Origin: an uncultured Erythrobacter sp.
GTDB lineage: Bacteria > Pseudomonadota > Alphaproteobacteria > Sphingomonadales > Sphingomonadaceae
Reading direction: 5' to 3'
DNA: 64,000 nucleotides
Assembly (NCBI GenBank): GCA_947498065.1
Contig: CANMIS010000003.1
Location: 124,001 to 188,000, forward strand
How positions within the stretch are numbered: the stretch's first letter is position 1; every line of letters starts with the position of its first letter. This document shows, in pieces, positions 26,390-42,924 of the stretch. The notes under the pieces were generated by a model. It was not told the origin of the DNA. It worked only from the letters and a program-made list of their open reading frames with translations, and ran no database searches. The translations under genes and the position numbers were made by a program.

Positions 26390-26464
26390 TGGCTGGGGTG
26401 GTAGGGATCGAACCTACGAATGCCGCTACCAAAAAGCGGTGCCTTACCACTTGGCCACACCCCA
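26390..26464 (-). tRNA. tRNA-Gln (anticodon UUG)
   Basis: A 75-nt cloverleaf on the minus strand with encoded CCA. The acceptor pairs TGGGGTG with CACCCCA and the discriminator is G. The anticodon stem CCGCT/AGCGG encloses the loop TTTTGGT, giving TTG. The T-arm GTAGG-TTCGATC-CCTAC is intact. A plausible promoter lies just upstream at 26476-26503. Confidence 0.97.
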
Positions 26465-29913: not shown

Positions 29914-29990
29914 TGACTAATGCGCTGTTAACTTGTCTTTAGGCGATCTCACGTAAAACCCTAAAAAAATATAAGAAGTTGGGGTGAGAG

Positions 29991-32282
29991 ATGGCAATCG
30001 AGATATGGCTGGCGCTGGCATGCGTGCTGGTTGCCGGAATGCAGATTGGTTTTCTGTTTTTGGAGGCTGGATTCGTCCGCTCTAAGAACAGCATCAACGT
30101 GTCGATGAAGAACCTTGCGGACTTCGTCGTCGCCGTTCTCGTGTTCCATATTGTTGGCGCGGCGATCATGTTTGGTGGCGGCTTTGGTCTCATTGGCTTC
30201 GACGCTGGCCTGCTCGGCTATTCGGGCGAAGGCTCGGTCACACTCTTCCTCCTATTCCAAGCCTTGTTCTGCGGTACGGCGGCGACCATCGTGTCTGGCG
30301 CGGTTGCAGAGCGTATGCGTTTCTCAGCCTATATTTTCATGACATTGCCGCTGACGGCGCTGATCTATCCCATGATCGGTCACTGGGCCTGGGCGAGCTA
30401 TTTGCCCGGCGGCAGTGGTGAGGGCTGGCTGCAGCAATTGGGCTTTATCGACTTTGCCGGTAGCAGCGTCGTTCACCTCGCTGGCGGCGCGGCGGCTTTG
30501 GGTATTTTGCTGGTAGTTGGCGCGCGTGATGGCCGCTTTGACCGCGGCGAAGGCGAGGATGATGACGCCATGCGCGCAATCCACGGCCACAGCCCGATCC
30601 TGACCGGGGGCGGCGCGCTGATCCTGCTCGTTGGCTGGCTCGGCTTTAACACCGGCACTTTGGAGCCGGGCAGTGATGATTTTGCCCGCGCTCTGTCCAA
30701 CACTTTGCTTGCCGGATCTGCAGCAGCCTGCGCCGCGGCTGTCACGGGGTATTACCGCGATGGCTATTACCGCGCAGACAGAATGGTCAACGGTCTGCTC
30801 GTCGGCCTGGTGGTGATCACCGCCAGCGCGCCTTACGCGCATTCATTGGGCGCGATCGGCGCGGCCGCTTTGATCGCGGTGGGCAGCGTCTTCTTCGCCG
30901 ATTGGCTGGAGCGCACGCACCGCGTCGATGATGCGGTTTATGCGGTCAGTGTGCACGGGTTTGGCGGTTTCTTTGGGACACTGGTGGTCGCCTTTATCGT
31001 GCCCGCAGATCGCCTGGCCCACGGGTTTTTCACGCAGTTTGGAGTTCAATTCCTCGGCGCGTTCAGCATTGGCGTCTTCGCATTTATGACCATGGGCCTG
31101 ATCGCAAACGCCATGCACACTCGCGGCAAATTGCGTGTGCCGTTGGAGGACGAGCGGCGCGGGCTGAACCTGTCGGAACACCGCGCTCTGCTGGGCAATG
31201 CAGAGCTGTCGCGGACCTTGAGCAAGATCAACAGCGGCGATGCCGATCTTAGCACGCGCCTTGATGTCGATCCGTTTGAAGAAGGCGGCGATATTGCAGA
31301 GGAGCTCAACGCGTTTCTCGGCCGGGTGCAAGCCACCGAAAGGATCGCGGCGGACAAATTGCGCGCGGAGCAAGATGAGCTTGCGAGCATGGTGACGCGG
31401 GAGCGCGACCGCGCGGATACCACCACCAAAGTGCTGCGCCAGTTTCAGAGAGATTTTGCCGGACTGGTGCAGCAATTGAACGCGCAGGCGCGCGATCTGG
31501 CGACCGGGTCTGAACGGCTTGCCGCCCATTCGCATGAGTCCGGCGAACAAGTCGATCATGCCAGCGCTCAGGCCGATGCAACGCTGAGCATGGCGGAGCA
31601 GATGGCCAAGGGGGCGCAGCTTCTCAGCGAGACTTTGGAGCTGGTTGGGACGCGCGTTGCCGATGCCAATGCGGCGGCCACCCATGCGGATCAAGCGAGC
31701 GATCGCGGCGCGCAAATCGCCGGTCAGCTGGAGCTGTCCGCGAAGGAAATCGGCAAGCTGGTGGCGATGATCAAATCGATCTCGGACAAGACCGGATTGC
31801 TGGCCCTCAACGCAAGGATCGAGGCCGCGCGCGCTGGCGAGGCGGGCAAGGGCTTTTCCGTGGTGTCGAGCGAAGTGGCGCAATTGTCGAAACAGACCCA
31901 GGAAGCCTCGAGCGAAATCTCGACTATCGTCGGATCGCTGTCGGAACTAATCGGCGAATCCATTGCGCAATTCCGCGCGATTGATGCCTCGATTGAAACC
32001 GTGGGTGAGATGGCCGCGGTGGCGGCAAGCTCGGTCGAACAGCAACGCACGACCAGCGCGGAACTGACCGGACTGATCGACGGTGTTCGCCGCAAGGCTT
32101 TGGACAGCGGCAGCGCGGTAGCGCAAGTGTCAGAGAACTTTGCGTTGGCCAGCAAGACGATTGATAAAATCGACAACAGCTCAGGCCAATTGGAGGCCTT
32201 GGCAACGCAGATTGACCGAGAAGTTGAGAGCCTGCGTCAGCGTTTTTCAGACGATGGCTTGTCCGCGGAACCTGCCGAATAA
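29991..32282 (+). CDS. ammonium transporter (Amt) fused to a methyl-accepting chemotaxis signalling domain
   Basis: 763 residues. Residues 1 to about 370 form an 11-helix Amt domain. The twin pore histidines are present (H162 in VVHLAGG, H322 in SVHGFGG), as is the Asp of FIDFAG (D154) and the Trp and Phe/Asn of WLGFN. The Ser of the usual FNxGS ammonium site is Thr (FNTGT). A HAMP-like linker (about 375-440) joins a cytoplasmic chemoreceptor coiled coil. Its hairpin tip near residues 600-620 reads [15 protein letters not shown], followed by [15 protein letters not shown], retaining the Asn, Glu and Arg used for CheA/CheW contacts. There is no C-terminal CheR/CheB pentapeptide. GGGGTGAGAG precedes the ATG. 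No glnK or che genes are nearby. Probably an ammonium sensor or transceptor. Confidence 0.93.
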
Positions 32283-35249: not shown

Positions 35250-35633
35250 TCAACGATTCGCGCGCAGCCATGTCAGCGCGTCGGATTTTTCATCGAAGAA
35301 ATCGACATCAATGCCTTCGCTCAGGCGCTTATATTGCAGCTTAGCCAGCGGGGATGCACCCAAGATTGCAACGCGCTTCAGCCCAAACTTTTGCGACATC
35401 AACAAATGGTCACGAATGGCGTCGCCTGTTTCGCGATCTTGCGGCAAGAACCCGGAGAAATCGACCAGAGCATAGATTGGCGAGCGTGATTTCACCAATG
35501 GCACGGCCACTTCATTGACCGTCTCGAAATAGGTCTGGATCGTCTCTACGTTCCAAAATCCGCTGACGACGGAATGGGTTTCACAATGCTGTTCTAGCAG
35601 GGTGGCGGAGTGGAATGGTTCGTTGCTTGTCAT
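35250..35633 (-). CDS. STAS/SpoIIAA-like protein, tandem paralogue 3
   Basis: 127 residues, no signal peptide or membrane helix. Pattern: VVSGFW, then a helix, YALVDFSGFLPQDRETGDAIRDHL, LKRVAILGASPLAKLQYKRL, then VDFFDEKSDALTWLRA. The strand-helix order and the closing FF-(x)n-AL-x-WL resemble SpoIIAA-like/DUF3478 (STAS-fold) proteins; I am not certain of the family. It is one of three adjacent same-strand paralogues (with 35716-36099 and 36184-36555), each with its own gap of about 80 bases. The role is unknown. Confidence 0.72.
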   Translation of the reverse strand: MTSNEPFHSATLLEQHCETHSVVSGFWNVETIQTYFETVNEVAVPLVKSRSPIYALVDFSGFLPQDRETGDAIRDHLLMSQKFGLKRVAILGASPLAKLQYKRLSEGIDVDFFDEKSDALTWLRANR

Positions 35634-35715: not shown

Positions 35716-36099
35716 TCAGAGCGGCTGGCGGATCCATTCAAGTCCGCTGATGCGATCGTCGAAAAACTCAACCTCAATCCCGTCGCTCAGTCGCTTATAT
35801 TGCAGCCTTACCAGCGGTGAGGCGCCCAGCGCGGCGATGCGCTTTAGGCCAACCTCGCCAGCTCCAGCCAAGTGATTGCGAATGGCGTCGCTGGTTTCGC
35901 GGTCCTGCGCAACGAAGTCGGTAAAGTCGACAAGAGCGACGATTGGCCCGGGGTTCTTGATCAGAGGGAATGCCTCTGCATTGACCGCAGTTATGTAGCC
36001 ATCGATTTCCTCACGCGTCCAAAAGCCCGAGATCGAGGTGTGGATCTCGCGTTTGTCGACCAGCACGGAAATGCTGTGGGAGGGGGCCTTCGTTGCCAT
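35716..36099 (-). CDS. STAS/SpoIIAA-like protein, tandem paralogue 2
   Basis: 127 residues, clearly homologous along its length to the genes on either side (SGFWTREEIDGYITAVN, VALVDFTDFVAQDRETSDAIRNHL, LKRIAALGASPLVRLQYKRLSDGI, EFFDD). The conserved core is the VDF-x-x-F-x-x-QDR-x-T segment. It is probably a cytosolic STAS-fold protein. Such proteins can regulate through phosphorylation or lipid binding, but no Ser or Thr phosphosite can be assigned with confidence. The 82-base gap to the next copy suggests separate translation signals. Confidence 0.72.
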   Translation of the reverse strand: MATKAPSHSISVLVDKREIHTSISGFWTREEIDGYITAVNAEAFPLIKNPGPIVALVDFTDFVAQDRETSDAIRNHLAGAGEVGLKRIAALGASPLVRLQYKRLSDGIEVEFFDDRISGLEWIRQPL

Positions 36100-36183: not shown

Positions 36184-36555
36184 TTAGTCTTGGCGCAGCC
36201 ATTCCTTGGCCGCTTGCGGCTCTTCGAAGAACTCTGCGTTCAAGCCTTCGGTGATGCGGCGATATTGCAGCTTTACCAGCGGAGATGTGGTGACCAGCGC
36301 AAGGCGCTTCACACCGTAATTCAAAGCCTCTTTGTTGCTGTTTTCAATCGCGGCGGCGGTCGCGCGGTCTTGCGGCACGAATTCGCGCAGGTCGCCTAGC
36401 AGGCTGTAAGGCTTGCCGGTTTCGACCAGTGGCGCGGCGACTGTATGAGCCTCTTGCAAGAAGTCTTGCACCAGCTCTTCATTCCAAAAACCACTAAGAG
36501 AAAAGTGGAGTTCAGAGTGATCAAGGTCGATTGAAATAGAGTGCTTGGGTTCCAT
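36184..36555 (-). CDS. STAS/SpoIIAA-like protein, tandem paralogue 1
   Basis: 123 residues, the most diverged of the three (LSGFWNEELVQDFLQEAHTVAAPLVET, SLLGDLREFVPQDRATAAAIENS, VKRLALVTTSPLVKLQYRRITEGL, EFFEEPQAAKEWLRQ). Being first in transcription order, it probably shows the promoter of the set: on the minus strand its upstream region contains GGTTTAACCATAC, close to a TTAACC-type motif. No known function. Confidence 0.7.
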   Translation of the reverse strand: MEPKHSISIDLDHSELHFSLSGFWNEELVQDFLQEAHTVAAPLVETGKPYSLLGDLREFVPQDRATAAAIENSNKEALNYGVKRLALVTTSPLVKLQYRRITEGLNAEFFEEPQAAKEWLRQD

Positions 36556-39802: not shown

Positions 39803-39921
39803 TGTTTGTTTTTCGCAAGCGCATCCGCGCTCGCGATTTCCTCGCTCACGCGATCAAAGATCGCGTCGCTGCGGGCGGGCGGTCGCCCTTGCGGCGCTGC
39901 GCGCCGTGCTCCGCGACCAAG
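39803..39921 (-). repeat. dispersed structured repeat, copy R1a
   Basis: Oriented towards ilvE. In this orientation the layout is stem 1 (CGGCGC-GCA-GCGCCG), core GCAAGGGCGACCGCCCGCC, stem 2 (GCGATC-TTT-GATCGC), GAGGAAATCGC, stem 3 (GCGAGCGC-GGAT-GCGCTTGC), then AAAAACAA. It is the same design as the other five copies, with different stem sequences. It forms the ilvE upstream region. Confidence 0.85.
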
Positions 39922-41782: not shown

Positions 41783-41784
41783 TT

Positions 41785-41897
41785 CCGCACTCGCATCCGC
41801 GAGTGCGATATCCTCGCTCATGCGATCAAAGATCGCGTCGCTGCGGGCGGGCGGTCGCCCTTGCGGTCAGCTGCGCTGACCGAGCTCCGCGACCAAG
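41785..41897 (-). repeat. dispersed structured repeat, copy R2
   Basis: The cleanest copy. Stem 1 is CGGTCAGC-GCA-GCTGACCG, then the core GCAAGGGCGACCGCCCGCC, stem 2 GCGATC-TTT-GATCGC, GAGGATATCGC, and stem 3 GCACTCGC-GGAT-GCGAGTGC. It fills the gap between the convergent tlyA and 41910-42566 genes. Confidence 0.85.
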
Positions 41898-42645: not shown

Positions 42646-42924
42646 TTATTCAGCAGCGGCACAGCATGCAGCTGCACAGCAAGCAGCAGCACAGCAGCCT
42701 TCAGCCGCACATGCAGATGCTTCACAACCTTCAGCTGCACAAGCAGATGCTTCGCAACCTTCAGCAGCACAGCAACCAGCGGCACAGCATGCAGCTGCAC
42801 AGCAAGCCACTGCAGTGGTGTCTGCGTCGGTGCTTGCTTCGTCAGCAGGTGCTGAACACGCAGCAGTAGCGATTGAAAGGCCGCCAGCGATCGCCATCAT
42901 CGATGCGAGTTTGGTCTTTTGCAT
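42646..42924 (-). CDS. Cys/Ala-repeat lipoprotein
   Basis: 92 residues. A lipoprotein signal sequence (MQKTKLASMMAIAGGLSIATAACSAP) has its lipid-carrying Cys at residue 23, followed by an acidic linker of about 15 residues. The rest is a repeat of CCAA and GCEASACAAE units with 16 Cys in about 53 residues and almost no other side chains except Glu. A 30-base unit encoding AAEGCEASAC is repeated in the DNA. The protein is likely to bind soft metal ions or form many disulfides at the membrane surface. No homologue is named. GAGG precedes the ATG by 10 bases and a strong terminator follows, so this is a real expressed unit. Confidence 0.8.
   Translation of the reverse strand: MQKTKLASMMAIAGGLSIATAACSAPADEASTDADTTAVACCAAACCAAGCCAAEGCEASACAAEGCEASACAAEGCCAAACCAAACCAAAE

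Follow-up and report, generated by a model that had tools for sequence, protein, structure and literature searches.

Tremblay and Hallenbeck are said to have discussed ammonium transporters (Amts) as sensors in 2009, and ammonium-sensing Amts linked to a kinase are already known. The available sections of the paper on Ks-Amt5 of Kuenenia stuttgartiensis (PMC5764959; PDB 6eu6) describe an ammonium sensor kinase, built from an Amt and a C-terminal signalling output, that binds two NH4+ in the membrane through Q24, E31, N47, D50, T51, T109 and T112, barely transports and has no HAMP domain. Ks-Amt5 is the only such protein named in the accessible portion of a 2021 review (PMC8534201), and the main text of a 2023 review of prokaryotic Amts (PMC10433425) contains none of the terms chemotaxis, MCP and methyl-accepting. 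A search of the literature on Amt-chemoreceptor fusions, Amt-GGDEF proteins and related structures, covering titles and the starts of abstracts with subscription journals outside its scope, found no Amt-MCP reported in any of the papers listed. The term ‘Amt-MCP’ in the part of PMC3699834 that was available denotes AMT-mcpGFP, an engineered fluorescent sensor.

Here we describe a gene, amt-mcp, whose product joins an Amt to the signalling domain of a chemoreceptor (MCP). It lies in a window of 64,000 nucleotides, positions 124001-188000 of contig C3 of a 3.2 Mb genome (G000; other G-numbers denote the genomes compared and L-numbers the loci). Like Ks-Amt5, the fusion carries its output C-terminally, but that output is an MCP hairpin and not a histidine kinase. 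Its Amt clade and kind of linker are shared with Amt-histidine kinases (Amt-HK; L062-L064, L086, L102 and L103) and Amt-GGDEF proteins (L016, L041-L045, L050-L056 and L089), from which it differs in output. With canonical MCPs such as Tsr and Tar it shares an MCPsignal hairpin with a recognisable tip; unlike them, it has no periplasmic ligand domain, no HAMP domain above threshold and a polytopic, presumably trimeric Amt as its sensor.

The gene is a single ATG-to-stop frame of 763 residues without interruption (29991-32282; this and all other features of the gene are on the plus strand), supported by orthologues and by dN/dS, and the sequence GGGGTGAGAG, a likely ribosome-binding site (29981-29990), stands immediately 5' of its ATG. 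Pfam places Ammonium_transp (PF00909) at residues 6-398 (30006-31184; 267 bits against a cut-off of 23.2, E 2.9e-79), which covers model positions 2-395 of 399 and hence the domain over its whole length, and MCPsignal (PF00015) at residues 557-719 (31659-32147; 85 bits against 34.6, E 5.5e-24). The initial annotation had read the locus as one unbroken Amt and MCP frame, which both domains bear out, and the motifs it named are all in place: D154, H162, WLGFN (216-220) and H322, the pore and structural motifs of the Amt (30450-30956), and the hairpin tip (residues 597-617; 31779-31841). It had also denied the protein a periplasmic ligand domain, and the Pfam scan of the protein showed no other ligand domain. 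Against the NCBIfam amt model TIGR00836 the fusion scores 289.8 bits, under the curated cut-off of 343.3, so it is a divergent Amt and does not class with the ordinary transporters of the TIGR00836 subfamily.

The best PDB matches of the Amt half are 8qpf/8qj3 (residues 3-453), followed by Ks-Amt5. The former entries carry the depositor's label ‘Ammonium transporter’ (661 and 644 residues) and match the fusion past the Amt domain into the linker, with no match beyond residue 453. The literature search found no paper for them. We take them to be an Amt-diguanylate cyclase. When the fusion is aligned with Ks-Amt5, Q18, E25, N41, D44, F45, T99 and S102 fall on the seven ligand positions; five of the seven are identical (Q24, E31, N47, D50 and T109 of Ks-Amt5), while T112 is replaced by S102 and T51 by F45. 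Y30 of Ks-Amt5 corresponds to L24, and bulky F21 and F28 occupy the positions of its F27 and F34.

A comparison of 56 Amts points to the same predicted NH4+ site (Q18, E25, N41, D44, T99 and S102; 30042-30296). The sample is not random, every Amt in it having been found by similarity to the window protein, and ‘fused’ here means an Amt with an extra output domain or a long tail (the eleven Amt-MCPs were assigned from their reading frames; L054, whose frame stops early, counts as GGDEF through its relationship to L055; L102 and L103 were read by eye outside the counts). The complete set of six residues is present in 29 of 29 fused Amts and in 0 of 27 free ones. Q18 and T99 each show the same 29/29 against 0/27, and D44 occurs in all 29 fused and 2 of the 27 free Amts. 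E25 and N41 are common in free Amts (24/27 and 22/27) and thus not specific to fused ones, so that only Q18, T99 and D44 discriminate. The transporter Af-Amt1 has V, Y, S and S at the positions of Q18, E25, N41 and D44. In a tree built from all 29 fused Amts and 12 of the 27 free ones, fused and free Amts fall apart with moderate support (80/93), the free rows lying on one side in 79% of bootstrap trees. At that moderate support the Amt half of the fusion groups with Amts whose output is a histidine kinase or a GGDEF domain and apart from free transporters.

We consider it probable that the fusion is an NH4+-binding chemoreceptor whose input is an Amt ammonium sensor and which controls CheA. 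NH4+ would pass by way of the extracellular vestibule of the Amt to the predicted intramembrane site, and its binding there would shift the C-terminal region of the Amt. A HAMP-like linker may relay this shift to the long MCP coiled coil, whose tip would control the CheA-CheW complex, with adaptation through CheR and CheB. On a speculative view, the output would be flagellar taxis in carriers with a flagellum and another process in those without, perhaps one linked to c-di-GMP. The view that the transporter module itself is the sensor gains support from the absence of another ligand domain, the grouping with fused Amts and the kept Ks-Amt5 site residues. If this reading is correct, a whole polytopic transporter fold would be the ligand-binding domain of a chemoreceptor, a marine-type bacterium would have a defined molecular ammonium receptor for its Che-pathway responses, and one sensor module would have been recombined with three kinds of output. 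It would also allow a direct test of a trimeric membrane domain driving dimeric receptor coils and arrays.

The architecture is not unique to the window, as the search for Amt and MCP architectures in related genomes proposed by the initial annotation made clear. The set of Amt-MCPs comprises eleven proteins: that of the window, L057-L061, L040, L085, L049, L087 and L088. Both domains exceeded the Pfam cut-offs in all nine that were scanned, and L057 and L060 were placed in the set, outside the Pfam scan, by 94% and 96% identity to the window protein. Among these, L040 and L085 come from genomes of the same family as the window and L049 from the same phylum but another class, and L087 (Phaeobacter inhibens) and L088 (Tritonibacter mobilis) are from roseobacters, both on plasmid records. 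Beyond the Erythrobacter relatives, the more distant members come from three further Sphingomonadales, two roseobacters and a single genome of a different class. A third plasmid record, H1, covers more than 80% of the query; it stands outside the set of eleven. The Phaeobacter plasmid was typed as conjugative, and its homologue adjoins recombinase and transposase genes. That homologue is annotated only as ‘ammonium transporter’, so genes of this kind are easily missed. We assume that the Amt-MCP architecture is very likely already in domain databases.

On the tree of Amt parts, three changes are required to account for the MCP label. The AU test rejects one common origin for the eleven Amt-MCPs (p 0.007) but not for the ten that remain when L049 is left out (p 0.09); the architecture therefore arose at least twice, a third origin not being certain. 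At only about 23% identity, the window protein's MCP part is less similar to those of the roseobacter Amt-MCPs than to most other MCPs of G000 (29-35%). Several candidates were dropped from the set. In Vibrio (L062-L064), tblastn rows cover both halves, but the frames are an Amt-HK gene and separate MCP genes, and for that reason these loci were removed. L086, L102 and L103, candidates by their frame lengths of 763, 774 and 770 residues, proved to be Amt-HK.

The absence of any che system from the genome would have spoken against the initial annotation; G000 has two clusters. System I, on contig C1, runs CheA-CheW-CheY-CheB-CheR and is followed by a GGDEF-EAL gene and an MCP. System II, on contig C5, holds an MCP, CheA, CheR, CheB, CheD, CheY and CheW, and a second CheB-like protein. 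G000 encodes 14 MCP-domain proteins, the fusion included. Eight Amt-MCP genomes (G000, G127, G607 and G831-G835) were searched for che and motility genes, and all eight have CheR and CheW-domain frames of CheA size (771-839 residues), confirmed as CheA by Pfam in G000 and by BLAST in G127 and G831. Five genomes (G831, G832, G833, G835 and G127) have one CheA-sized frame each; its type was read in two of these five, G831 and G127, where it is 95% and 39% identical to the CheA of system I and is followed by CheW, CheY, CheB and CheR. Because its type co-occurs with the fusion in relatives that have a single CheA, system I on C1 is likely to be the partner. Comparison of MCP sequences does not settle the choice between the systems: the fusion's MCP part shares 31-34% identity with MCPs of the system I type, and 29% and 33% with L001 and L002, which are of the system II type. 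With regard to the proposal that ammonium is coupled to CheA and CheW, the che genes are present, and the coupling to CheA is something we infer. Two details of these clusters can be added: the CheA of system I (L090:6989-9418) extends for about 250 residues past its CheW domain with no Pfam match, and the second CheB-like protein beside system II (L091:3379-4479, minus strand) consists of a receiver and a weakly matching methylesterase.

Whether the output is swimming is uncertain. Flagellin was found in G607, G831, G833 and G835, and Pfam found none in G000, G127, G832 and G834, with which a Flagellin_C search of six of the eight genomes agrees. FliF-family matches fall into a high class (174-212 bits; G000, G607, G831, G833 and G835) and a low class (111-114 bits), the latter being the only one in G832 and G834; in G000 the low-class match sits inside a type III secretion-like cluster. 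G127, which is 100% complete, gave no FliF-family, FlhA-family or flagellin match. Three of the eight genomes thus have neither flagellin nor flagellar-class FliF, although the completeness of G831-G835 is not given, and it follows that the fusion is kept in three genomes with no recognised flagella. G000 itself carries FlgI, FliF, FliI, FliP, FliR, a full-length FlhA match and hook/rod-type genes on contig C6; its flagellin may be lost, divergent or missing from the assembly. The flagellar cluster (L095; C6, 24901-44800) lies on a contig of 49.9 kb in a genome that lacks flagellin by two Pfam models, and the type III secretion-like cluster (L096; C4, 375000-394900) includes a secretin, YscD-like, YscJ/FliF-like and FlhB/YscU-like proteins, an ATPase and a FliMN_C protein. 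Ammonium taxis is accordingly not assured, given the three genomes above and the want of a recognised flagellin in G000.

These observations bear on the best-surviving alternative, in which ammonium is sensed but the Che output is not motility, CheA and CheY feeding instead into c-di-GMP turnover or attachment where flagella are absent. G127 has the fusion together with CheA, CheW, CheY, CheB and CheR and none of the flagellar families named above, and G832 and G834 have only the class of FliF that G000 has in its secretion cluster. A GGDEF-EAL gene directly follows cheR in G000 and G831, and PilT (TIGR01420) is above cut-off in none of the eight genomes, by which type IV pilus twitching was rejected as an output. 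The four genomes with both flagellin and flagellar-class FliF (G831, G833, G835 and G607) and the flagellar genes on C6 argue the other way, as does the 19.9 kb around the che cluster of G127, in which no GGDEF-EAL gene was found. We therefore hold a non-motility output to be possible but tentative. If it is correct, ammonium would in some lineages be a direct input to a Che system that does not serve motility.

Another alternative is that the fusion still works as an ammonium transporter and that its MCP tail signals flux or controls uptake. The signal would then track the transport cycle, an idea put forward for transceptors, and not the occupancy of a high-affinity site. D154, H162 and H322 are intact here and unchanged in 56/56 of the aligned Amts, and the engineered ammonium-responsive AmTrac sensors in the accessible part of PMC3699834 are all functional transporters. 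On the other side, G000 has a separate free Amt of the AmtB-like type (L101), and the fusion keeps Ks-Amt5-type residues, F21 and F28 included, although F21 is also found in 24/27 free Amts. The initial annotation had left it between ammonium binding and flux as the trigger. Of the two, binding has the better support, since the fusion retains most of the Ks-Amt5 site and Ks-Amt5 barely transports; with the pore histidines intact, transport by the fusion may still occur. On balance a flux-reporting transporter seems unlikely, and the NH4+-binding chemoreceptor remains our preferred reading.

The C-terminal region of the Amt and the linker span residues 382-450 (31134-31340), and the linker itself (about 399-450) has a pattern that recurs across the Amt-MCP, Amt-HK and Amt-GGDEF proteins, consistent with a shared transmission element. 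A HAMP-like linker in the fusion would set it apart from Ks-Amt5, but we propose this character with low confidence. Pfam gave no HAMP match in the window protein at E up to 10, three of the nine Amt-MCPs scanned (L061, L087 and L088) have a sub-threshold HAMP match at the linker (E 0.005-0.02), and a search with a profile built from 16 linkers gave no significant match to a HAMP structure. The junction structure was predicted as the initial annotation had suggested: the AlphaFold model has helices at residues 385-414, 433-618 and 622-754 with a turn at the expected tip, but its mean pLDDT of 58 is poor and it was used for helix limits only. The cytoplasmic hairpin would accordingly extend over residues 433-754 (31287-32252) in this low-confidence model. 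Candidate methylation-site stretches, for example SVEQQ at 681-685, were seen by eye only.

The tip bears on the possibility that the MCP part has lost its contact with CheA and remains as a decoy or structural tail. The tip is not canonical, with G602 at the position of N376 in Tsr. In place of R614, L058 carries N and L040 carries H, and both retain the remainder of the tip. Tip substitutions thus vary among orthologues, and the substituted positions are important in Tsr. Other MCPs of G000 also have TG or NAR in the tip. Against a decoy, N607, E611, A612, A615 and G616 are invariant in 11/11 Amt-MCPs, and the MCP part is as constrained as the Amt part. Orthologues in four uncultured Erythrobacter genomes, the nearest named relatives, share 94% (L057), 79% (L058), 67% (L059) and 96% (L060) protein identity with the fusion and lie in the same gene neighbourhood. 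Comparison of the window with each of them gave dN/dS values of 0.04-0.11 in the Amt part, 0.03-0.14 in the MCP part and 0.05-0.16 in the linker, where a single comparison could not be computed, leaving 11 of 12 overall. Purifying selection acts on both halves, and a decoy is highly improbable. That a sequencing or assembly error joined two genes has nothing in its favour and can be dismissed: the same frame and neighbourhood recur in L057-L060 and the fusion in distant genomes too, the five frames compared have no internal stop, and the dN/dS values speak against it.

Returning to the chemoreceptor reading, its geometry is of interest. Amts assemble in threes, and MCP dimers associate into trimers of dimers. 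We propose on this basis that two Amt trimers could furnish the six chains of one trimer of dimers. A wider and distinctly more doubtful hypothesis than the chemoreceptor itself is that a sensor of three-fold symmetry, derived from a transporter, was captured at least twice as an input to CheA arrays, with two Amt trimers for each trimer of dimers and a non-flagellar Che pathway in some lineages.

The Amt-MCP fusion is rare. A match across both halves was found in 0/36 other genomes of the same genus, and in 2/397, 3/396 (L086 being left out as Amt-HK) and 3/398 genomes of evenly drawn samples of the family, order and phylum, which overlap and each count G000. In the phylum sample 25 genomes matched; the output domain was read in 12 of these, and in the other 13 the match ended by residue 455.

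Other features of the window can be noted. Three consecutive ORFs on the minus strand (35250-35633, 35716-36099 and 36184-36555; 123-127 residues) are mutually alike by eye. A tRNA at 26393-26464 (minus strand) is the sole Rfam match in the window at the gathering threshold. At 42650-42814 there is an overlapping 30-nt repeat of tandem type in which GCA/CAG-like triplets are abundant. A dispersed repeat of 84 nt joins 39811-39894 and 41783-41866 with 90% identity, and about 117 bp of it match several places in L060 and L057.
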